Shown: positions 5,047 through 37,258 of the stretch, piece after piece
Numbering within the stretch: the stretch's first letter is position 1
Layout: each line of letters begins with the position of its first letter
Source: an uncultured Flavobacteriaceae bacterium
Lineage (GTDB): Bacteria; Bacteroidota; Bacteroidia; Flavobacteriales; Flavobacteriaceae
Length of the DNA: 46,204 nt
Assembly: GCA_937936275.1 (NCBI GenBank)
Contig: CALHCJ010000042.1
Coordinates: forward strand, 1 to 46,204
Reading direction: 5' to 3'
Notes under the pieces: generated by a model
What the model saw: the letters and a program-made list of their open reading frames with translations, nothing else
Told to the model about the DNA's origin: nothing
The model's database searches: none
Program-made: the position numbers and the translations under genes

Positions 5047-5219
5047 ATATAACAGTAGAATAAAATTTCCTTTAATTTTATTAGAAAGCATGATTTTTGG
5101 TGCTTTTTTTCCACAATTCATAAGAAATTACCTTTTCGACTACTATTTGTTGATTTTTTTCTCAAATCTGAGCACTTCCAGACAGCACTATTGTCGAATA
5201 TCTTATAGTTAAATAACAA

Positions 5220-5239
5220 TACCCTCAAATTTTTAGGGT
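5220..5239. promoter_or_regulatory. Palindromic operator candidate TACCCT-CAAATTTTT-AGGGT upstream of PII-amtB
   Basis: Inverted repeat with 9-nt spacer, same form and spacing as at 36101-36120. Confidence 0.55.
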
Positions 5240-5308
5240 CTATTTTATCATATATATAAAAATACAGCTTGCACCCTTCAAAAAAGAGGGGTGTTAATTT
5301 TTTTAACA

Positions 5309-5316
5309 TACATTTG
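5309..5316 (+). promoter_or_regulatory. Bacteroidetes -7 box TACATTTG (TAnnTTTG) for PII-amtB
   Basis: Exact match to TAnnTTTG 24 nt before the ATG at 5340. Confidence 0.55.
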
Positions 5317-5339: not shown

Positions 5340-5678
5340 ATGAAACAAATCGAGGCAATTATTAGAAAATCAAAATTCGATGACGTCAAAAAAGCTTTGC
5401 ACACCATCGAGGTTAATTTCTTCAGTTACTGGGACGTAACAGGGGTAGGAAACGAAAAACAAGGACACGTATATCGTGGAATCTCGTATAGCACAACAGA
5501 CATTCAAAGACGCTATTTGTCAATAGTAGTATCTGATGAATTTTTAGAGAAAACGGTAAATACCATACTAGAGTCTGCCTATACCGGCAACGTTGGAGAT
5601 GGTAAAATCTTTGTTTCAGAGGTAAAAGAAGCTTATAGAATACGAACTAAAGAGAGCGGCCAAGCCGGAATCAACTAA
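5340..5678 (+). CDS. glnB: PII family nitrogen regulatory protein
   Basis: MKQIEAIIRKSKFDDVKKAL; T-loop YRGISY; B-loop TGNVGDGKIFV; C-loop RIRTKESG; directly upstream of amtB. Confidence 0.92.
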   Translation: MKQIEAIIRKSKFDDVKKALHTIEVNFFSYWDVTGVGNEKQGHVYRGISYSTTDIQRRYLSIVVSDEFLEKTVNTILESAYTGNVGDGKIFVSEVKEAYRIRTKESGQAGIN

Positions 5679-5706: not shown

Positions 5707-6939
5707 ATGGACGCAGGATTATTTACAGCGAATAACGTATGGATGATGTTGGCTACCGCATTGGTATTCTTCATGCATACAGGTTTTGCTTTCCTTGAAA
5801 TAGGATTAACAAGATCAAAAAATACAATTAACATATTATTCAAAAACATATTTATCATCACAGTAGGCTTACTACTGTATTACGCATGGGGCTTCAATTT
5901 AATGTATCCAGGTTTTGAAGAAGGTTCATCAGGAATTTTCGCTTTCGCCGGATTTGGTATTGATGCTCCTGCAAATGGAATGACTCCAGATTATGCAGAT
6001 GGCGGTTATACCTGGTGGACAGATTTCTTATTTCAAGGAATGTTCGCGGCTACAGCGGCGACTATCGTTTCAGGGGCCGTTGCAGAACGCATGAAAATTG
6101 GCGCCTTTATGATTTTCACAGTTATATACGTAGGGTTAGTATACCCAATCGTAGGTGCTTGGAAATGGGGTGGTGGTTTCTTGGATGCCTGGGGATTCTA
6201 TGATTTCGCGGGTTCTACTTTAGTGCATTCTGTTGGAGGTTGGGCGGCACTTGTTGCTATTGCTCTGCTTGGATCTAGAATTGGAAAATTTGGTGAAGAT
6301 GGAAAACCAAAAGCGATTCCGGGACACAGCATTCCTTTAGCCACGGCAGGTGTATTAATCTTATGGTTAGGATGGTTTGGATTTAACGGAGGCTCTGTTC
6401 TTTCGGCTGATCCAGCTTTAACATCATTAGTTCTTGTTACTACAAGTTTATCTGCTGCTGCAGGTGGTGTTGCTGCTATGATCTTGAGTTTCATTCTTTA
6501 TAAGAATTTAGACCTTACCATGTTCCTAAATGGTATTTTGGGTGGTCTAGTTGGTATAACTGCTGGGGCAGATTTAATGTCTCCTAATGAAGCCGTCATT
6601 ATCGGGCTACTGTCCGGTATCATTATCGTGCTAGGAGTTGCCTTAGTAGATAAATTAAAGTTAGACGATCCGGTTGGTGCCGTTGCAGTCCATTTAATCT
6701 GTGGTATTTGGGGAACACTAGCTGTAGGTATTTTTGGAAGCATGGCCGGGGGTGGTCAATTCATGACCCAGTTATACGGAGTACTCATTATCGGGGCATT
6801 TTGTATAATCACTTCAGGCATCATTATAGGCGCACTCAAAGCTACCGTAGGTATTCGAGTATCGAAAGAAGAAGAAGTAGAAGGTCTTGACCTTCACGAG
6901 CACGGTATGGATGCGTACCCAGATTTTACAAACGATTAA
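5707..6939 (+). CDS. amtB: ammonium transporter
   Basis: FFMHTGFAFLEIGLTRSKN, DFAGSTLVHSVGGWAALV, GWFGFNGGS, DDPVGAVAVHLICGIWGTLAVG. Confidence 0.97.
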   Translation: MDAGLFTANNVWMMLATALVFFMHTGFAFLEIGLTRSKNTINILFKNIFIITVGLLLYYAWGFNLMYPGFEEGSSGIFAFAGFGIDAPANGMTPDYADGGYTWWTDFLFQGMFAATAATIVSGAVAERMKIGAFMIFTVIYVGLVYPIVGAWKWGGGFLDAWGFYDFAGSTLVHSVGGWAALVAIALLGSRIGKFGEDGKPKAIPGHSIPLATAGVLILWLGWFGFNGGSVLSADPALTSLVLVTTSLSAAAGGVAAMILSFILYKNLDLTMFLNGILGGLVGITAGADLMSPNEAVIIGLLSGIIIVLGVALVDKLKLDDPVGAVAVHLICGIWGTLAVGIFGSMAGGGQFMTQLYGVLIIGAFCIITSGIIIGALKATVGIRVSKEEEVEGLDLHEHGMDAYPDFTND

Positions 6940-7053: not shown

Positions 7054-8124
7054 ATGAACATGATTACATTTACAAATTTCGGAAAAAAAATAACGCTAGC
7101 AGCTTTTATGTTTTTAGCAACTATTAGCACATTTGCCCAAGACGAAGAAGAAAGCACCGAACCTAAATTCACACTAAGTGGAAGCGTTGATGCGTATTAC
7201 AGAGCTAATTTAAACTCTGCAAATTCAGGACCTAACTACTCCGCTCCCGGAAGTTCATTTGCAAATTTACCAGGATTTGCTCTCGGTATGGCTAACGTAA
7301 TCGTTGGTTATGAAGGAGAAAAAGTAGGTTTTGTCGCTGATTTGGTTTTCGGTCCTCGAGGAACGGATGCTATTTTTGCCTCTCCTTTATATTCTGCTAC
7401 AGGTAATATTGTAAACCAGTTATATGCTTACTGGAATGTTAGCGAATCGGTTAAGCTTACTTTTGGAAATTTCAACACCTTCTTAGGTTATGAAGTTATT
7501 TCACCTGTAGCCAATTTTAACTACAGTACTTCCTATTTGTTCTCTTATGGTCCATTTTCTCATACTGGTTTAAAAGCTGACTTCGCATTATCAGAAGATT
7601 TTAGTTTGATGCTAGCAGTAATGAATCAAACTGATTTAACGGAATTCAATCCAACAGGACTCTATGCATACGGCGCTCAACTTGGGTATAGTGGTCAATA
7701 CCTTAATTTTTTAGCTGATAACGGTTCATTCGAAGTAGATTTTACGGGTGGCTTTGATCTTTCTGATTCTTTTTTCCTAGGAATAAACGCTGCGTACTTT
7801 AGTGGAGATGAAGAAGATGGTATTGGAGATTTTGCAGGGGTAGCTATTTATCCGCAATTAGCAACATCAGAGAATTTCACCATTGGACTTAGAGGCGAAT
7901 ATTTTGCTGAAACCGATAATTTTGGAGCAATTGGAGCAAACGATGCAAACGGAGATGCTAGTGTTCTAGCTCTAACCTTAACTGGCAGTGCTACCATTGG
8001 AGATTTAATTCTTAAGCCAGAATTTCGTTTAGATAATGCTTCAGAAGATGCCTTTTTAGATTCTGATGGAAACCCCATTGGAAGTCTTTCATCTTTCGTA
8101 CTAGCAGCAGTTTACTCCTTCTAA
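7054..8124 (+). CDS. outer-membrane beta-barrel porin-like protein
   Basis: Signal peptide ending STFAQ; repeated amphipathic strands, terminal ...SSFVLAAVYSF aromatic end; downstream of amtB. Confidence 0.78.
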   Translation: MNMITFTNFGKKITLAAFMFLATISTFAQDEEESTEPKFTLSGSVDAYYRANLNSANSGPNYSAPGSSFANLPGFALGMANVIVGYEGEKVGFVADLVFGPRGTDAIFASPLYSATGNIVNQLYAYWNVSESVKLTFGNFNTFLGYEVISPVANFNYSTSYLFSYGPFSHTGLKADFALSEDFSLMLAVMNQTDLTEFNPTGLYAYGAQLGYSGQYLNFLADNGSFEVDFTGGFDLSDSFFLGINAAYFSGDEEDGIGDFAGVAIYPQLATSENFTIGLRGEYFAETDNFGAIGANDANGDASVLALTLTGSATIGDLILKPEFRLDNASEDAFLDSDGNPIGSLSSFVLAAVYSF

Positions 8125-13730: not shown

Positions 13731-14855
13731 TTACTTTTTGCTAGTGGGTTTTACCGTAGCGTATTTTAATAGATCATTCTCAATTGCATATTGAATCAAT
13801 TGATTCTTTCCGGCTGATCCGCTAATATGCAGTGCCTTTTTAATTTGGTAAATATGCGTTTGAAAACCATCAACGCTAATATGCATCGACTCAGCTATTT
13901 CTGTATAAGACTTTTCATTTCCAAAAATTCCTAAATTTCCTAAAACTTCCTTCTGTCGCTCAGAGAGTTCTATTTTGCTTGCTTCTGTTAATGCATTATT
14001 TTCTAGTGTCAATCTTGAAATAGTATCTAAATGACTATCATTTGCAAGCTGCAACCTTGTTCTTTCTTCTTCTAGTTTGGTCTTGGCAATTAAAATCTCT
14101 TCCAATAAAGATTGCTTCTCCTCTTTTTCAGATAAAAACTTCCAACTATACAATAGGATAGAGAATAACAGAATAAATAAAAATTTAAATGAAATTGCAC
14201 TGATAGTACCCAAAAGGATCCAGGTAGGCTGCGATATAAAATTTGGTATGTGTTCAATAGGCACAATTCTATGTGTTACCGCACTTACAATAAGCACAAA
14301 AAGTGCAAAACAAGGTAGAATCATAAAACGCATACTCCTACTGTTAAAGGCCTTATTTAAAGCACTGAGCAACTCAAACGCAACTACAATTGAAATGGGA
14401 ATATCGATGAGCCAAATCAAAGAATTGTTTATACGAGTATTGGTGTACGAGGTAGCGAAAAACACGAACACTAGCATACCCATTACTCCCATGTAGATAT
14501 AAATAAATTGTCTTTCGGAAAATCGATCGACTATTTGAATAATCAGTGATCGTCGACCTTTATATTCTATGGATGGTAATGAGAGTATAATAAAAAGAGA
14601 ATTCAAGAGGGAAACTAGTACCCCTGAATAAATCAAAAACCTACTATCAGGAGACCCTTTAAAGTAGCCAACCACTATTAAATTTAAAAACGCCCCAAGG
14701 CCCCAAATGAAAATAGCGAAACCGAACCACATGATACCATTGATCTCAGTTACTCTCGCTACGTGTTTTTTTTCTTTTTTATAAATACGTTGAATGACAA
14801 TAGCGGTAATCAAACAAACGATTGCTGTTATAGCGTATTCTAAAATAATTTGCAT
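13731..14855 (-). CDS. membrane-bound LuxR-type HTH regulator
   Basis: Seven-TM-like N-terminal half, coiled region, C-terminal LSERQKEVLGNLGIFGNEKSYTEIAESMHISVDGFQTHIYQIKKALHI. Confidence 0.75.
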   Translation of the reverse strand: MQIILEYAITAIVCLITAIVIQRIYKKEKKHVARVTEINGIMWFGFAIFIWGLGAFLNLIVVGYFKGSPDSRFLIYSGVLVSLLNSLFIILSLPSIEYKGRRSLIIQIVDRFSERQFIYIYMGVMGMLVFVFFATSYTNTRINNSLIWLIDIPISIVVAFELLSALNKAFNSRSMRFMILPCFALFVLIVSAVTHRIVPIEHIPNFISQPTWILLGTISAISFKFLFILLFSILLYSWKFLSEKEEKQSLLEEILIAKTKLEEERTRLQLANDSHLDTISRLTLENNALTEASKIELSERQKEVLGNLGIFGNEKSYTEIAESMHISVDGFQTHIYQIKKALHISGSAGKNQLIQYAIENDLLKYATVKPTSKK

Positions 14856-14975: not shown

Positions 14976-15428
14976 TTATGTCATTTCTTTAAGAATAGGA
15001 GCATTTGAAACCACATTCGATAAAATGATGTGGGTTCTTGTCTCGCCATATTGAATAAGCTTGTCAATGAACTTTTCTAAATGAAACTGATCTTTTAAAA
15101 CAACCTCCATAATAATATTCTCATTCCCAGTAATACGATAGCAATTTATTACTTCTTTGAAGGTGACTACGGTCACTAAAAAAGGTTTGAGTTTTCCCAT
15201 AAAAGCGCGCAGGGTAATTATTGCTTTCAGCTGATGCCCTGTCTTGGCATGTGATACTTTTGCAGTGTACCCTTGAATAATTTCCATATCTTCCATTTTC
15301 TTGATACGCTCTGCAACGGCAGGGGGTGTCAACCCGACTTGCCTACCAATTTCAGCGAAGGAAGCGCGTGCATTTTCTTGAAGACTATTCAGTATCTTCC
15401 AATTCAACATATCGATCTTATCATTCAT
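14976..15428 (-). CDS. Lrp/AsnC family transcriptional regulator
   Basis: Start at MNDKIDMLNWKILNSLQENARASFAEIGRQVGLTPPAVAERIKKMEDMEIIQGY. Confidence 0.93.
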   Translation of the reverse strand: MNDKIDMLNWKILNSLQENARASFAEIGRQVGLTPPAVAERIKKMEDMEIIQGYTAKVSHAKTGHQLKAIITLRAFMGKLKPFLVTVVTFKEVINCYRITGNENIIMEVVLKDQFHLEKFIDKLIQYGETRTHIILSNVVSNAPILKEMT

Positions 15429-15541
15429 AATAATTATACATATATATTTAATAATCAAAAGATAAATTAAGATTATACTTTTGATTCTAAATAACAATAT
15501 ACTGATTTGGTAGTAACTTTAATAAAAATTTTGTTGCAAAA

Positions 15542-28507: not shown

Positions 28508-29169
28508 TAGTTGAAATCGATAGCGTTGAATTGAATTTTGATAAAAAGAGAATTCTTTATGGAGTTTATCTCAAAGCGGAAACAGGAAAAGTTACTGGGG
28601 TGCTCGGCAGAAATGGTTCGGGAAAAACATGTTTGCTACGCATTCTTTTTGGAGATTTAAAACCAAAATATAAAAACGTCCGAATCGATGGGTCGTATCT
28701 AAAAAAGAAACTTTATCAAACCGATTCCGTTGCCTATCTACCACAACATCAATTATTACCTCAAGGAATTAAGCTTAAGAACGCCTTTAGGCTGTTTAAC
28801 GCACATTGGTCAGATTTCATAAATTTGTTTGATTCATTTAAAATTCATGAAAAATCGAAAAGCAATCAATTGTCATCGGGCGAACTAAGGGTCATTGAAA
28901 CATATCTAGTTTTAAATTCTGGGAAGGAAATTATTCTACTAGACGAACCCTTTTCATTTATTGCACCCTTATACATTGAAAAATTTAAGATATTGCTTCT
29001 AGAAAAGAAAAAGCAAAGCGTCATCATGATTACTGATCATTTTTACAGAGATATTTTAAAAGTAAGTGACACCATCTACTTTCTAAAAAATGGATCATCT
29101 AAACAAATAAAATACAGAGAAGAACTCGAAACAGAGGGCTATTTAAATATCAATCTGCCACAAAAGTAG
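28504..29169 (+). CDS. ABC transporter ATP-binding protein
   Basis: Walker A GRNGSGKTCLL; signature LSSGELRVIE; Walker B KEIILLDEPF; H-loop MITDHFY. Confidence 0.93.
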   Translation: MIVEIDSVELNFDKKRILYGVYLKAETGKVTGVLGRNGSGKTCLLRILFGDLKPKYKNVRIDGSYLKKKLYQTDSVAYLPQHQLLPQGIKLKNAFRLFNAHWSDFINLFDSFKIHEKSKSNQLSSGELRVIETYLVLNSGKEIILLDEPFSFIAPLYIEKFKILLLEKKKQSVIMITDHFYRDILKVSDTIYFLKNGSSKQIKYREELETEGYLNINLPQK

Positions 29170-30454
29170 TACCGGCAGAAACTATAAAGGCATTTAGCCC
29201 ATCACTTCGGTCGTATCTATTTATACGCAAATCAAGAGTTTTCAGTCCGAACGTAAATATTTTAGCACTTGTGAATATGTCTTTGTAACGAATGCCCATA
29301 CCATATTGGTGGGCATTATAAGGAGATAAATCATAGTCTGAGGTATAAAAATCAAACGTTGACAAGGCTGCATCTTTAGCATAAAAATAGTCAGCACCGG
29401 TCTGGGTGTAATATCTATAGGAAGGATACAGCGTAAACCTATCATTTAATTTAATAGGAATCTCAATATTTGCCGTATGCGAAGTGATTCCCCAATCGTC
29501 ATTGTAAAAACGGTAGTAGGTTCTTAAAACAAACCGATCATCAATATAATAATTCAATCGACCACCAATAGGAATTTTAAGACGCGTTTCCGGTAAGCGT
29601 TCTATGTCATCCGCAAGTTGAAACTCTTCGATAAAGAAATTCGATCTGTCACCAAAATAAACCCTTTGAAACGGAGTACTCAACAATCCACTTTGAGATA
29701 CAACATCCATAAAAATAGAACCTTGCACTTTTTTACTCAAAATTTGTGAAAGGCCTAGTGATATGGAATAGGAGTTTCTAGATTCATTATTAAATGGATC
29801 GAAATTGGGCGTATAATTACCTTCTCCAGTAATTCGAGAATCGAAAAAACCATTTCGAAGTTCAACCGGGTATTGAGGATTCCATGTATCGAAAAACACC
29901 TGTCCGTTTATAGAAAGTTCCGTATTTTTTTCATTAAAAAGTCGTGTATAACCTCCGCCAAATCCTACAGAAAAATAATCATATTCTGAAGAGACATATG
30001 CCTTCGCGGTAACAATTGAATTTCGATCATCAGAACTGTGAGAGTAGGTAGGGTTAAAATACGTGAGCACATCCTGTCTTGAAGCTCCTGTAGAGGCGCT
30101 GAACGGACTCGCATTGCGATTGATATCACCATCAAATGGGTTGACGTTACTTGAAGAGGCTGATGTGTAGGCAGAGACACCAGCGTCCACAGTTAGAATA
30201 TCATCTTCTCCTAATGGAATTCGTACTACCACAGTCGAGGTAGCATCTGTTAATTCTTCTGTACCTTCTCCTCCAGTTACCGCAGCATTACGGCCATCTT
30301 GACCGTAGTAACTAAATAGTAAATCGATTTCAGCGGTTTCTAAGACACGCTTTTTATACGATGTATCTTCTTGAGCAAAGACCGTTAATGTCTTAAATAG
30401 AACCACAATATATATGAGGCTCCTCAAATGAGAAGATGTTAATTGCATCCGCAA
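29150..30454 (-). CDS. DUF3570 domain-containing outer-membrane beta-barrel protein
   Basis: Signal peptide ...TVFAQ; YKKRVLETAEIDLLFSYYGQDGRNAAVTGG; SPFSASTGASRQD; RLKIPIGGRLNYYIDDRFVLRTYYRFYNDDWGI. Confidence 0.85.
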   Translation of the reverse strand: MRMQLTSSHLRSLIYIVVLFKTLTVFAQEDTSYKKRVLETAEIDLLFSYYGQDGRNAAVTGGEGTEELTDATSTVVVRIPLGEDDILTVDAGVSAYTSASSSNVNPFDGDINRNASPFSASTGASRQDVLTYFNPTYSHSSDDRNSIVTAKAYVSSEYDYFSVGFGGGYTRLFNEKNTELSINGQVFFDTWNPQYPVELRNGFFDSRITGEGNYTPNFDPFNNESRNSYSISLGLSQILSKKVQGSIFMDVVSQSGLLSTPFQRVYFGDRSNFFIEEFQLADDIERLPETRLKIPIGGRLNYYIDDRFVLRTYYRFYNDDWGITSHTANIEIPIKLNDRFTLYPSYRYYTQTGADYFYAKDAALSTFDFYTSDYDLSPYNAHQYGMGIRYKDIFTSAKIFTFGLKTLDLRINRYDRSDGLNAFIVSAGTTFVAD

Positions 30455-30648
30455 CCTCCTCCACTTTTACCTCCATTGGCACCCGCAGAAGCTTCTCGAT
30501 AAATTTGAAAATTGGTTTCAAAACGCTCCATACCCTTTACCGACAAAAGCATTTCTTCATCATTTAGATACACCTTATCATATTCCTTTACAGCTACGCA
30601 AGAAGTTGCAATCAAAGCCAAGCAAAATAATAGAAGTACTTTTTTCAT
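30439..30648 (-). CDS. DUF4266 domain-containing small lipoprotein with C-terminal GGGCGCN
   Basis: Start at MKKVLLLFCLALIATSC (lipobox); VKEYDKVYLNDEEMLLS; C-terminus GANGGKSGGGCGCN; overlaps DUF3570 start by 16 nt. Confidence 0.82.
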   Translation of the reverse strand: MKKVLLLFCLALIATSCVAVKEYDKVYLNDEEMLLSVKGMERFETNFQIYREASAGANGGKSGGGCGCN

Positions 30649-30658
30649 ATGCTTAAAG

Positions 30659-31654
30659 TTAAGGATCATGCTCAAATAAAATACCATCGCTCTTGTGGAC
30701 TTTATTAAAATTATCAAACAAAATCACCTCAACACCATCTAACTGATTAATTAGAAATATACCTGCATCTTTCCCCATGATAAAAACAGCTGTCGCCAGC
30801 GCATCACACAGTTCTGCATTTTTTGCAAAAATCGAAACTTGACGGATTCCAGAAGTTGGATACCCCGTTCTCGGATCGATAATGTGTGAATATCTTTTCC
30901 CGTTAAAATTTACAAATTTCTCATAATTACCAGACGTAGCGACTGATGACTCAATCACAGGAAGCCATGAGACGATCTTATCTTTACTTAACGGATTTAC
31001 TACCCCAATAATCCATTTTTTACCGCTAACATCAGTGCCCCAAGTAGTCAGATCTCCAGCAGCATCTATAATACCACCAACCACTTGCCTTGATACCAAA
31101 AATGCTTTGGCTTTGTCAGCCGCGTATCCTTTGCCTATAGCTCCAAAGGAAATTTTCATTCCTTTTTCCTTTAAAAAAACAGTTTGATCATCACTATTCA
31201 TAATAATCTTTTCATAGCCCACCCGATCTACAGATTTTTTTATTTCCTCCGGACTGGGCATTTTGGTCATACTACCGTCAAACTTCCAAATTTTATCCAT
31301 TGAAGAATACGAAATATCGAATGCGCCGTCAGTGAGTTCTGAAATTTGTTTGCACCGTTCAATCAGTTTATATAGCTCTAAACTGACTTTAACAGGTTTG
31401 ATTCCAGCATTTTTATTGATTGCATAGGTTTCTGACTCCGTATCCCAAGAAGAAATCATCTTCTCTATTCGTTTAATTTCTGCAATTCCTTCTTGAACAT
31501 TAATGTTAGCCAGTTCTTCATTTGTTGAAACTACCGTAATGCTGAAACGGCTTCCCATCAATTTCAGCGTTTTTTTAGCCGTAATGTATTTGATTTCTTG
31601 GCCAAAACCAGAAAACACTATAAGAGCAAAAAGCAGGGAAACCAAAATTCTCAC
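30659..31654 (-). CDS. apbE: FAD:protein FMN transferase
   Basis: LMGSRFSITVVS; ISFGAIGKGYAADKAKAFLVS; GGIIDAAGDLTTWG; YSHIIDPRTGYPTSG. Confidence 0.95.
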   Translation of the reverse strand: MRILVSLLFALIVFSGFGQEIKYITAKKTLKLMGSRFSITVVSTNEELANINVQEGIAEIKRIEKMISSWDTESETYAINKNAGIKPVKVSLELYKLIERCKQISELTDGAFDISYSSMDKIWKFDGSMTKMPSPEEIKKSVDRVGYEKIIMNSDDQTVFLKEKGMKISFGAIGKGYAADKAKAFLVSRQVVGGIIDAAGDLTTWGTDVSGKKWIIGVVNPLSKDKIVSWLPVIESSVATSGNYEKFVNFNGKRYSHIIDPRTGYPTSGIRQVSIFAKNAELCDALATAVFIMGKDAGIFLINQLDGVEVILFDNFNKVHKSDGILFEHDP

Positions 31655-32091
31655 TTTATAAAAGTATTTAAAAGTGAAATGTATGCATCAGGATTTAACT
31701 TTTTATATCCCGTTTTACCCAAAACCTTCTCGTCAGGGCTTAAGACAACAATCAGCGGAAAGTGACCGCTAGCATTTAACCGCTGAGCGAGTTCGGCATT
31801 TTGTTTAGCAATTTCTTGAGATAATTGATTTGACTTTTTTCTGGGAAAATCAGCCTTGTATAAAACATAGTGATTTTGTGAATACGTCTTGAACTCAGAC
31901 GATTGCCAAATATTTCGTTCTAGTTTGATACAAGGGGCGCACCAGTCTGAACCTGAAAATACCACAATCATGGGCTTACCTTGTTCTTTAGCCAACACTA
32001 GTGCTTCTGCGTACTTAGGCTGCCAATTTTGTGAAAAAACAAAAATGGAACAAAGAAAGAAAACTATGGAGGCAATCGTTTTCAGGGACAC
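31651..32091 (-). CDS. exported thioredoxin-family protein
   Basis: Signal peptide ...IFVFSQ; PMIVVFSGSDWCAPCIKLE (CAPC active site); SGHFPLIVVLSPD. Confidence 0.88.
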   Translation of the reverse strand: MSLKTIASIVFFLCSIFVFSQNWQPKYAEALVLAKEQGKPMIVVFSGSDWCAPCIKLERNIWQSSEFKTYSQNHYVLYKADFPRKKSNQLSQEIAKQNAELAQRLNASGHFPLIVVLSPDEKVLGKTGYKKLNPDAYISLLNTFIK

Positions 32092-32104
32092 AAAGTTTTA
32101 TTCA

Positions 32105-32548
32105 TTATTCAAACACTCGAAGCATATCTCCTGTCAACTCGGTGTTATATACTTTTAAGGCTTTTGCTGGATTACTGTCAACTTGATTGGTAGGCGTTCC
32201 GTTCTGCTCAAATCTAGAACCGTGTACATCACAATAGAAGATACCGCCATCTTGACTGACAAATCGCACTTGGTCATACCCTTCGTGACTACAAACCTGA
32301 CTTGCCGCAATCAGATTGCCTTCTAAATTTCGTGCGACTACAACTAAATTTTTAAGAATAAATCCGCCGTTCGTGGCTAACTTAGAACCCTCAGAAGAAC
32401 TTAAATCAATAGTAAAATCAACTCCGGTCGGTTCTTCTACAATATTTCCTTCAGGAGTATCGTCACTTGAACATCCATTGAGACAGGGAAAAGTTAGTGC
32501 AAATGCGGCACCTGCCCCCAAACTTTTTAAAAACTGTTTTCTTTCCAT
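32105..32548 (-). CDS. Rieske [2Fe-2S] domain lipoprotein
   Basis: ASQVCSHEGYDQVRF...GIFYCDVHGSRFEQNG matches CxH...CxxH; N-terminal signal with CLNGC. Confidence 0.88.
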   Translation of the reverse strand: MERKQFLKSLGAGAAFALTFPCLNGCSSDDTPEGNIVEEPTGVDFTIDLSSSEGSKLATNGGFILKNLVVVARNLEGNLIAASQVCSHEGYDQVRFVSQDGGIFYCDVHGSRFEQNGTPTNQVDSNPAKALKVYNTELTGDMLRVFE

Positions 32549-33836: not shown

Positions 33837-36023
33837 TTACTTTATAAACAAAAGTTCTCTATATTTTGTTAATGGCCAAACTTGATCATCGATCAATTGC
33901 TCTAGCTTATCACTTTCATAGCGTATCTCATCAAAATGAGGCTTGATATTTTCAGCATAAGCCAACGCTTTTTTAAGACTATCCGTTAACTGGTTTGCCT
34001 TTTTTCTTGCGTCGGTCATTGCATCTGTTTTAGCTTTTAACACAACAATATGTTCTGCTATTTTCTCAATAATGTTTGATTGCCCCTCTGTTAATTTTTT
34101 GTGGGCTGCCCCATAAATATCTTTTAGCCCTAAAACATTTTTAATGAGTTTATTTTGATATGTTATTGCCGCTGGAATTATATAACTGTAAACAAGTTCA
34201 TTGAAAACACGTCCTTCAATTTGAAGATGTAAAATATAAGCTTCAAGCTCAACTTCTTGTCGTGCATTTACCTCAATCTCACTCATCACTTTCATCGATT
34301 TGAACAAGTCAATGGTATCAGGTGAAGTCAACACTTTTAAGGCCTCTGGGGTAATTTTGTTATTGCTAAGCTTCCGTTTCTTGGCTTCTTTTTCCCAGGC
34401 TTCACTATAACCGTCGCCATCAAATCGAATTCGTTTTGAAGTTTTAATATACTCACGAAGCACATTAAAAATAGCCTCATCTTTCTTCAAACTCTTCTTA
34501 TCAACTAACGCATCAACCTCTTTCTTAAAAGCTCGTAATTGCTTTGCGACAATGGTGTTCAAAATAGTCATCGGTTTAGCACAATTGGCCTGTGAACCGA
34601 CACCTCGCATTTCAAATTTATTGCCAGTAAAGGCGAAAGGTGAAGTTCGGTTGCGATCAGTATTATCCATTAAAATTTCAGGAATTTTACCAACAACATT
34701 TAATTTGAGTTCGGTTTTTTCTTCTGGGGATAATTTTCCTTTAGAAACTCCTTCCAACTCATCTAAAACCCGACTGAGCTGTGTACCAATAAAAATGGAC
34801 AGAATTGCCGGCGGAGCTTCATTAGCCCCTAAACGATGATCGTTTCCTGCGGAAGCAATCGATGATCGCAGTAACTCTTCGTAAGTGTCTACTGCTTTTA
34901 TGGTGTTGATAAAAAAGGTTAAGAATTGTAAGTTCTTCATCGGGGTAGAACCCGGACTCAATAAATTCACTCCCGTATCGGTTGCCAAAGACCAATTGTT
35001 GTGTTTCCCCGAACCGTTGATACCCGCAAAAGGTTTTTCATGAAATAACACTTTAAAGCTGTGTTTATCTGCAATTTTATCCATCACATCCATTAAAAGG
35101 AGGTTGTGATCTACCGCAAGATTTGCTTCTTCAAACACGGGAGCCAATTCAAACTGATTGGGCGCTACTTCGTTGTGTCTTGTCTTTACAGGAATACCGA
35201 GTTTCGTACATTCCTTTTCTAAATCGCTCATAAAGCTCAACACCCTACCTGGAATAACGCCAAAATAATGATCATCTAGCTGTTGGCCTTTTGCTGCAGA
35301 ATGCCCTACCAAAGTACGACCTGTAAGACTTATGTCAGGTCTTGAATTGGCCAAAGCCTTATCTATTAAAAAATACTCCTGCTCCCAGCCTAGAGTAGCG
35401 TTAACCTTAGATACGTTTTTATCAAAATATTTTGCCACTGCCGTAGCTGCTTCATCCATTGCGTGCAAGGCTCTTAACAAGGGCGCTTTATTATCTAAAG
35501 CCTCTCCAGTGTAGGAGACGAAAATTGTTGGAATACACAGGGTCGTTTCGTAAATAAAAGCAGGCGAGGTTGGATCCCAAGCAGTATACCCTCTTGCTTC
35601 GAAAGTATTTCGAATTCCTCCACTCGGAAAACTAGAGGCATCGGGTTCTTGTTGTACTAATTGCCCACCACCAAACTTCTCCAAACCGCGACCATTAGGT
35701 AGTAAGTCAAAAAATGCATCATGCTTTTCAGCCGTAGCACCTGTCAAGGGTTGAAACCAATGTGTGTAATGTGTAGCCCCCATCGAAATCGCCCAGCCCT
35801 TCATGGCCTCCGCAACTTGATCTGCAATCTTACGATCAATTTTAGACCCAGAGACTATTGCACTTTGAACACTTTGTAGCGCATCTTTCGTAAAATATTG
35901 AAGCATTCGCTCTTCATTAAAAACATTTTGAGCAAAGAGCTCAGAGCGTCTTCCTTTTTCTTCAATAGTAATTCGATTTCTGTTTTGACTCTCAGTAATG
36001 GCTTTAAATCTTGCTTTAGACAT
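33837..36023 (-). CDS. glnN: glutamine synthetase type III
   Basis: Start at MSKARFKAITESQNR; HWFQPLTGATAEKHD; WEQEYFLID; TRHNEVAPNQFELAPVFEEANLAVDHN; GSGKHNNWSL; NDHRLGANEAPPAI. Confidence 0.96.
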   Translation of the reverse strand: MSKARFKAITESQNRNRITIEEKGRRSELFAQNVFNEERMLQYFTKDALQSVQSAIVSGSKIDRKIADQVAEAMKGWAISMGATHYTHWFQPLTGATAEKHDAFFDLLPNGRGLEKFGGGQLVQQEPDASSFPSGGIRNTFEARGYTAWDPTSPAFIYETTLCIPTIFVSYTGEALDNKAPLLRALHAMDEAATAVAKYFDKNVSKVNATLGWEQEYFLIDKALANSRPDISLTGRTLVGHSAAKGQQLDDHYFGVIPGRVLSFMSDLEKECTKLGIPVKTRHNEVAPNQFELAPVFEEANLAVDHNLLLMDVMDKIADKHSFKVLFHEKPFAGINGSGKHNNWSLATDTGVNLLSPGSTPMKNLQFLTFFINTIKAVDTYEELLRSSIASAGNDHRLGANEAPPAILSIFIGTQLSRVLDELEGVSKGKLSPEEKTELKLNVVGKIPEILMDNTDRNRTSPFAFTGNKFEMRGVGSQANCAKPMTILNTIVAKQLRAFKKEVDALVDKKSLKKDEAIFNVLREYIKTSKRIRFDGDGYSEAWEKEAKKRKLSNNKITPEALKVLTSPDTIDLFKSMKVMSEIEVNARQEVELEAYILHLQIEGRVFNELVYSYIIPAAITYQNKLIKNVLGLKDIYGAAHKKLTEGQSNIIEKIAEHIVVLKAKTDAMTDARKKANQLTDSLKKALAYAENIKPHFDEIRYESDKLEQLIDDQVWPLTKYRELLFIK

Positions 36024-36100
36024 AATCATTTGTTCTTGACGACTAAGCAGCCGTTGATAATATGACAAAATTACTATCAAATAATAGATATTTCACAATT

Positions 36101-36120
36101 TACCCTACAAAAATTAGGGT
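36101..36120. promoter_or_regulatory. Palindromic operator candidate TACCCT-ACAAAAATT-AGGGT in the divergent GSIII/GSII promoter region
   Basis: Perfect inverted repeat (TTACCCTA/TAGGGTAA, 36100-36122); same ACCCT-N9-AGGGT as at 5221-5239. Confidence 0.6.
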
Positions 36121-36188
36121 AATATGAAAAAGGAATAACTTTTAACAAATATACCCCCTCAAAAATTATGATAATTCATCAAAAAACA

Positions 36189-36196
36189 TATTTTTG
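36189..36196 (+). promoter_or_regulatory. Bacteroidetes -7 box TATTTTTG (TAnnTTTG) for GSII
   Basis: Exact TAnnTTTG match 40 nt before the ATG at 36236. Confidence 0.5.
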
Positions 36197-36235
36197 TTTG
36201 TCTTTTTATTATCGTTAACGTAACTATTGAAAATT

Positions 36236-37258
36236 ATGAGTAAGATTAAATTAGAATACATTTGGCTAGATGGATACTTCCCGACACAAAATTTGAGAAG
36301 TAAAACTAAAGTTGAAGAGCACGAAAATTTTAAAGGAACACTAGAGGAATTAGACAACTGGTCTTTTGATGGGTCTTCAACACGACAAGCAGAAGGTGGT
36401 TCGTCTGACTGCTTGCTTGTACCTGTTGCTATCTATCCTGATCCTTCTCGCATCAATGGTTATTTGGTTATGACTGAGGTAATGAATGCTGACGGAACGC
36501 CTCACGTATCTAATGGTAGAGCCACTATTGATGATGACGATAACGATTTTTGGTTCGGCTTTGAGCAAGAATATTTTATCATGGATACCAAAACGCAGCT
36601 GCCCTTAGGTTTCCCTATCGGAGGATATCCTGCTCCACAAGGAATGTACTATTGCTCCGTTGGTGGGAAAAACACGCACGGAAGAGAACTAGTTGAAGAG
36701 CATGCAGATTTATGTATTGAAGCTGGCCTAAATTTTGAAGGTATCAACCAAGAAGTTGCATCTGGTCAATGGGAGTTTCAATTGTTTGCCAAAGGTGCTA
36801 AAAAAGCCGGAGATGAAATCTGGATTGCTAGATACTTACTAGATCGTTTGACAGAAAAATATGGTTACTACATTGAGTATCATCCAAAGCCTCTTGGTAA
36901 AGATATGGACTGGAATGGTTCAGGGATGCACGCTAATTTCTCTAACGAGATACTAAGAACATGTGGAGATAAAGAGGTTTACGCAAAAATATGCGAAGCT
37001 TTCCGACCTGTAGTTAAAGAACATATTGAAGTTTATGGTGAATTTAATGATCAACGTTTAACGGGAGATCACGAAACAGCAGCGATTACTGATTTCTCTT
37101 GGGGAGTTTCAGATAGAGGTGCTTCAATACGCATTCCAATTATTGCGGTTGAGAAAGGTTGGAAAGGTTGGTTAGAAGATCGTAGACCTGCTTCTAACGG
37201 TGACCCATACAAAATTGCAGCCAGAATTATTAAGACCGTTAAAACGGCTAAAGTATAA
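36236..37258 (+). CDS. glutamine synthetase, eukaryote-like type II
   Basis: IWLDGYFPTQNLRSKTK; NWSFDGSSTRQAEGGSSDCLLVPVAIYPDP; FGFEQEYFIMD; QWEFQLF; NGSGMHANFS; DRGASIRIP. Confidence 0.95.
   Translation: MSKIKLEYIWLDGYFPTQNLRSKTKVEEHENFKGTLEELDNWSFDGSSTRQAEGGSSDCLLVPVAIYPDPSRINGYLVMTEVMNADGTPHVSNGRATIDDDDNDFWFGFEQEYFIMDTKTQLPLGFPIGGYPAPQGMYYCSVGGKNTHGRELVEEHADLCIEAGLNFEGINQEVASGQWEFQLFAKGAKKAGDEIWIARYLLDRLTEKYGYYIEYHPKPLGKDMDWNGSGMHANFSNEILRTCGDKEVYAKICEAFRPVVKEHIEVYGEFNDQRLTGDHETAAITDFSWGVSDRGASIRIPIIAVEKGWKGWLEDRRPASNGDPYKIAARIIKTVKTAKV

Follow-up and report, generated by a model that had tools for sequence, protein, structure and literature searches.

Paired palindromes as a putative nitrogen-assimilation operator in Flavobacteriaceae

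The PII-amtB promoter of an uncultured Flavobacteriaceae bacterium carries two copies of a palindrome set one helical register apart ahead of a TAnnTTTG box. This arrangement raises the question of whether the palindromes form a specific operator for nitrogen genes, as the initial annotation had suggested, and which protein might bind them. We followed them through the window (the whole stretch of 46,204 nucleotides that was analyzed), the 3.38-Mb source genome, and further genomes of the family and phylum. Judging from the sequence, the sites are probably the nitrogen-assimilation operator of a Flavobacteriaceae regulon.

The distal operator of PII-amtB, ACCCTCAAATTTTTAGGGT (positions 5221 to 5239, centre 5230; palindromes are given here without a strand), is an exact ACCCT-N9-AGGGT with a score of 19.5 bits in the position weight matrix (PWM), and it is kept in orthologous promoters. 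The second palindrome that had been pointed out, ACCCTTCAAAAAAGAGGGG (5273 to 5291, centre 5282), has the same form with one mismatch and lies within the proximal operator CACCCTTCAAAAAAGAGGGGTG (5272 to 5293), which is the top PWM site of the window at 20.0 bits. The proximal operator is 52 bp downstream of the distal one, a spacing of 52 to 55 bp being kept in PII promoters, and its right half falls at about the position of a would-be −33 element. The TAnnTTTG box does start at 5309, where TACATTTG (5309 to 5316, + strand) is the −7 box of the PII-amtB promoter, and its distance from where the proximal operator starts is kept at 34 to 37 bp. Near −60, in the stretch that separates the operators, a ATAAAAAT tract (5256 to 5263, + strand) is kept at a fixed place in most aligned PII promoters; this tract is a possible UP element, i.e., a binding place for the C-terminal domain of the RNA polymerase alpha subunit.

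A further palindrome, TGTTAATTTTTTTAACA (5292 to 5308), is placed after the proximal operator, ahead of the −7 box, and matches the GlnR/TnrA-like pattern TGTNAN7TNACA exactly. Of 18 PII promoters only 4 (close relatives) have this pattern, as do 2 of 80 glutamine synthetase (GS) upstream regions; the palindrome is therefore not part of the conserved promoter architecture, and the same counts speak against GlnR/TnrA as the regulator. The promoter is followed on the + strand by the gene for a GlnB/GlnK-type PII protein (5340 to 5678; Pfam P-II, E value of 8e-23), the ammonium transporter gene amtB (5707 to 6939; Pfam Ammonium_transp, E value of 3e-114), and a BBP2 porin-like gene (7054 to 8124; assigned from a profile match and gene contexts). 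In other genomes, the BBP2 gene is found within the amtB operon and is sometimes the first gene after the operator. Second PII copies were seen in genomes G017, G018, and G019.

The same motif and geometry had been claimed for the GS promoter, and the match turned out to be closer than claimed. The strong GS operator, ACCCTACAAAAATTAGGGT (36102 to 36120), is an exact ACCCT-N9-AGGGT of 15.9 bits, and a weak proximal operator that had been overlooked, ACCCCCTCAAAAATTATGATAA (36153 to 36174; 9.8 bits), lies 52 bp downstream with its left half kept in relatives. The strong operator stands 78 bp before the −7 box of the GSII promoter, TATTTTTG (36189 to 36196, + strand), which is also kept in relatives. 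On the other strand it stands about 38 bp before TAATTTTG (36066 to 36073, − strand), which we read from the sequence as the candidate −7 box of the divergent GSIII promoter; the GSIII box of genome G059 is preceded by a site at about 36 bp. Both pairs of the window, at PII and at GS, lie at equivalent distances upstream of the TAnnTTTG box. The GSII-type glutamine synthetase gene occupies 36227 to 37258 (+ strand; Pfam Gln-synt_C and Gln-synt_N) and the GSIII gene 33837 to 36029 (− strand; Pfam GSIII_N, E value of 1e-75). The mechanically called TTG start of GSIII at 36080 is probably too early, since most homologues are 728 amino acids long, which indicates the ATG at 36023; a start at 36029 or 36023 is more likely. 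Genes for DUF3570, ApbE, thioredoxin-like, and Rieske-type proteins are located near GSIII (29150 to 32548, − strand).

Exact ACCCT-N9-AGGGT occurs only twice in the source genome, at PII-amtB and at GSIII/GSII, both in the window, where three matches with at most one mismatch were observed against 0.62 expected (three were reached in 2 of 100 shuffles). Elsewhere in the family, many genomes contain exact matches to the bare pattern in numbers similar to those of a reversed control. Since such matches are common background across the family, the signal is carried by the placement and pairing of the sites and not by the bare pattern. Site pairs with summed scores above 20 bits are found in the window only at PII (39.5 bits) and GS (25.7 bits), each scoring best at a spacing of 52 bp. 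The layout that had been proposed is exact at one site each of PII and GS, but the N9 centre is not strict, as odd-centred (N9) and even-centred (N8) palindromes are about equally frequent across 48 sites, and many relatives have the form ACCCCT-N8-AGGGGT.

Conservation in orthologous promoters had been set beforehand as a test of the operator, and the fixed positions are kept at both GS and PII. The GS footprint sample comprised 80 GSII loci from named genomes, nearly all Flavobacteriaceae. In most of these loci, the palindrome is followed by a C-tract half-site about 52 bp downstream and by a TATNTTTG box after about 86 bp. The information in 40 non-redundant GS promoters peaks at the CCC, the GGG, the second C-tract, the A-tract between the sites, and the −7 box. 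PII-first promoters have two full palindromes, usually 52 to 53 bp apart (range, 52 to 55 bp), followed by TAnnTTTG. The helical register read from two centres 52 bp apart holds across genera, with spacings in 30 promoters of 51 to 55 bp and nearly always 52 to 53 bp; one locus, L142, has three sites spaced 53 and 52 bp. The GSII proteins of loci L052, L057, L075, L080, and L098, labelled Rhodobacteraceae, Saprospiraceae, or Cytophagales, are 88 to 94% identical to the flavobacterial query, and these MAG contigs may carry wrong labels or contamination.

A position matrix trained on PII and 12 GS promoters (the 12 being among the 80 scored) exceeded its threshold of 11 bits in 69 of the 80 GS upstream regions versus 1 of 299 control upstream regions from the same loci and 0.2% of shuffles. 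In genome G043, of which 1.33 Mb (∼79% of the genome) was scanned with its own sites excluded from the training, pairs above 20 bits at spacings of 51 to 55 bp were found only at amtB, PII, and GS, with two isolated others at 59 and 60. Both results support the earlier proposal of a specific, though still putative, nitrogen-regulon operator. No paired site precedes a regulator gene in the scanned ∼79% of G043, i.e., no autoregulated regulator was found there.

Two sequence models were searched more widely, one built from GS promoters alone (R1) and the other from PII and GS promoters jointly (R2). R1 recovered PII promoters in genomes of the same genus (e.g., G051:C15:50109, with the PII gene at 50233) and gave several matches in G135, a member of another family in the same order; the PII promoter of the source genome itself was absent among its reported top matches. 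At E values up to 0.003, R2 matched the source genome at PII and GS (4e-15 and 5e-10) and nowhere else, and it had matches in 54 of 61 Flavobacteriaceae genomes. When 61 genomes were drawn phylum-wide, R2 matched 6, comprising the source, 4 other Flavobacteriaceae, and 1 genome from outside the family (E value of 6e-4). The operator is largely confined to Flavobacteriaceae. GS genes found without a site include GSII in G004, G056, G061, and G068 and GSIII in G022 and G023.

The gene contexts place the sites before PII-amtB, amtB genes, GSIII/GSII, glutamate synthase, and alanine dehydrogenase, the last having an operator in about nine genomes. At some operators, BBP2-amtB is divergent from glutamate synthase, and distant Amt-like genes also have sites (L278 and L303). 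Lone sites at other genes showed no recurrence between genomes in these contexts.

We assign a probability of roughly 0.7 to an activation reading, in which the sites are paired nitrogen operators occupied by two dimers of one regulator that act in tandem. Each inverted repeat (C3-5, an A-T-rich centre, and G3-5) would be bound by one homodimeric DNA-binding protein, presumably the same at both sites, and the two dimers would lie on one face of the helix, separated by five turns. They would most likely provide tandem class I and class II activation of a primary-sigma promoter with the TAnnTTTG box from centres near −90 and −38, values that hold for a predicted start some 11 bp past the first base of the box. 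The alpha C-terminal domain may sit on the A-tract between the sites, the proximal half-site would stand in for the −33 element, and the signal would be nitrogen, probably sensed as 2-oxoglutarate or glutamine. Tandem class I plus class II activation is favored because of the in-phase spacing, the A-tract near −60, and the proximal site abutting the core promoter.

Repression is the alternative that survives best, although we consider it unlikely. When nitrogen is in excess, cooperative binding of two dimers at a distance of five turns would occlude the −33 region, and ammonium limitation would lift the repression. The proximal site does overlie the −33 region and suits a repressor equally well, paired in-phase sites fit cooperative repression too, and nitrogen repressors of such a kind exist, namely, AmtR and GlnR. 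The different relation of the strong GS site to the divergent GSIII promoter, whose box it precedes by about 38 bp, also counts against the activation reading. On the other hand, tandem activators typically show a site near −90 and an A-tract separating the two sites, and TTTG at −33 is found in 0 of 18 PII promoters, which suggests a promoter that is weak without help, in a test of low power whose control regions were likewise unenriched. The direction of nitrogen control in Bacteroidota is not safe to assume, because the amtB and glnK transcripts of Prevotella ruminicola are higher with non-limiting ammonium (PMC5552732).

Among candidates for the binding protein, the best placed is LrpB, an Lrp/AsnC protein of about 156 amino acids encoded beside a zinc peptidase that adjoins alanine dehydrogenase, and even this assignment is doubtful. 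In several genomes its gene lies 1 to 2 kb from an alanine dehydrogenase that has an operator, LrpB is found in most of the site-bearing genomes tested and is missing from the site-less G022, G023, and G056, and Lrp-family proteins favor A-T-rich palindromes and control such genes elsewhere. However, a single one of the clearly site-bearing genomes tested, G010 (99% complete; sites at alanine dehydrogenase and GSIII), lacks LrpB; LrpB is present in the site-less G004 and G068; and it remains by the zinc peptidase even when alanine dehydrogenase is not there. Another Lrp/AsnC gene lies in the window between PII and GS (14976 to 15497, − strand) and has close orthologues about 6 to 35 kb from GS in many Flavobacteriaceae, PII-amtB having moved in some. 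Its product was rejected as the regulator on the lack of a close orthologue in the strong-site genomes G003, G014, G025, G043, and G053. The window also encodes a 374-amino-acid protein of no clear family (13731 to 14855, − strand) with a weak sigma-70 region 4-like helix-turn-helix near its C terminus.

An Rrf2/IscR-type regulator appears less probable again. The IscR type 2 core consensus CCxYA-N7-TRxGG (PMC4055776) is matched exactly by the GS operator and with one mismatch by the PII operator, and the gene immediately after an Rrf2 gene in G043 encodes a PII paralogue. The core is nevertheless short and AT-rich, with the N7 form matched in 6 of 30 promoters and an N6 form in 17 of 30, and the Rrf2 gene of G043 adjoins sulfate-assimilation-like genes; IscR type 2 sites also differ from the flavobacterial operator in targets and pairing. 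The G043 Rrf2 gene and PII paralogue (37% to the window PII) are located at L479 17388-18221, equivalent to C2:57388-58221. The candidate regulators encountered in G043 (∼79% surveyed, with seed proteins) were Rrf2, MarR (2), TetR, AraC, NarL, LytTR, OmpR (2), ArsR-like, and LrpB.

A Crp/Fnr-type activator resembling NtcA would suit the −90/−38 layout and the 22-bp size of the sites, which are like those of tandem CRP promoters, but it is very improbable. G053 (90% complete) has a strong paired site (R2 E value of 4e-13) and no HTH_Crp_2 match, and it is this profile absence that led us to disfavor the candidate; the source genome has only weak HTH_Crp_2 matches, and neither GTA-N8-TAC nor TGTGA-N6-TCACA is matched in the PII and GS regions. 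The tandem CRP promoters of Escherichia coli (−41.5/−91.5) share with the flavobacterial ones two sites about five turns apart, equivalent distances to the start, and room for the alpha C-terminal domain between the sites, whereas the flavobacterial half-site is different, the regulator is not Crp by profile, and the flavobacterial starts are predicted. The NtcA regulon of cyanobacteria (Crp/Fnr; GTA-N8-TAC) likewise has a palindromic nitrogen-assimilation operator before a primary-sigma −10 type box and targets GS, PII, and amt. The flavobacterial system differs in its C-tract/G-tract half-site, in paired sites being the rule, and in Crp/Fnr proteins being missing or weak in site-bearing genomes.

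Control by an NtrC-type protein with sigma-54 is more improbable still. The CCC-N11-GGG spacing equals that of the NtrC-like TGC-N11-GCA, and the NtrC/sigma-54 regulon of Proteobacteria has similar targets (glnA and glnK-amtB), paired upstream sites, and N11 between the inner bases. However, the PII and GS regions contain no −24/−12 GG-N10-GC pair, and their boxes are the conserved TAnnTTTG. One HTH_8 protein per genome, about 420 amino acids long, was found in the site-bearing G043, G047, G053, and G059, but one of similar size is present in site-less genomes, and an NtrC/HTH_8 regulator was rejected because these proteins do not discriminate between the two groups.

The GlnR/TnrA (Bacillus) and AmtR (Corynebacterium) regulons include the same kinds of target genes, but the GlnR/TnrA motif is not the conserved flavobacterial element, and the AmtR box shows only a loose CTAT-N6-ATAG match, near 36074. 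A BlaI-type regulator is encoded near GSII in about 35 loci, and the known BlaI-type motif differs. In L268, an ECF sigma gene that follows a perfect palindrome was dismissed, that palindrome being likely a terminator after an M16 peptidase gene. Finally, the bare pattern is background and some matches elsewhere are probably terminators (L268), but the reading of the palindromes as chance, terminators, or RNA hairpins is refuted by their conservation and placement: the spacing and the distance to the −7 box are fixed, the sites lie upstream of the predicted start and are conserved family-wide, the CrcB gene upstream of PII-amtB has its own hairpin with a T-run (5085 to 5110), and an Rfam search of the site region gave no match.

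The TAnnTTTG −7 box is shared with described flavobacterial primary-sigma promoters (PMC9723704), and the portions of that study drawn on here give sigma-factor motifs and no such operator. The motif had not been recognized as a described binding site in the initial annotation, and the open-access literature searched yielded no described motif or regulator like the paired operator. The chances are about even that Flavobacteriaceae have a nitrogen control of their own, in which a regulator family not known for this role would act as two dimers five turns apart on primary-sigma promoters, independently of NtrC, NtcA, GlnR, AmtR, and NrpR. Proteins and algal polysaccharides are consumed on a large scale by Bacteroidota in marine, soil, and gut habitats. 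For these bacteria, the open-access literature searched holds no established account of how the transcription of genes for ammonium uptake and assimilation is controlled. An operator that is conserved, highly specific, and tied to a defined set of core target genes offers a direct handle on this control, as bait for the regulator and in reporters for the signal. Its rigid spacing of 52 to 53 bp also makes it a good naturally occurring example of a promoter architecture in which paired sites work with the primary sigma factor of Bacteroidota.
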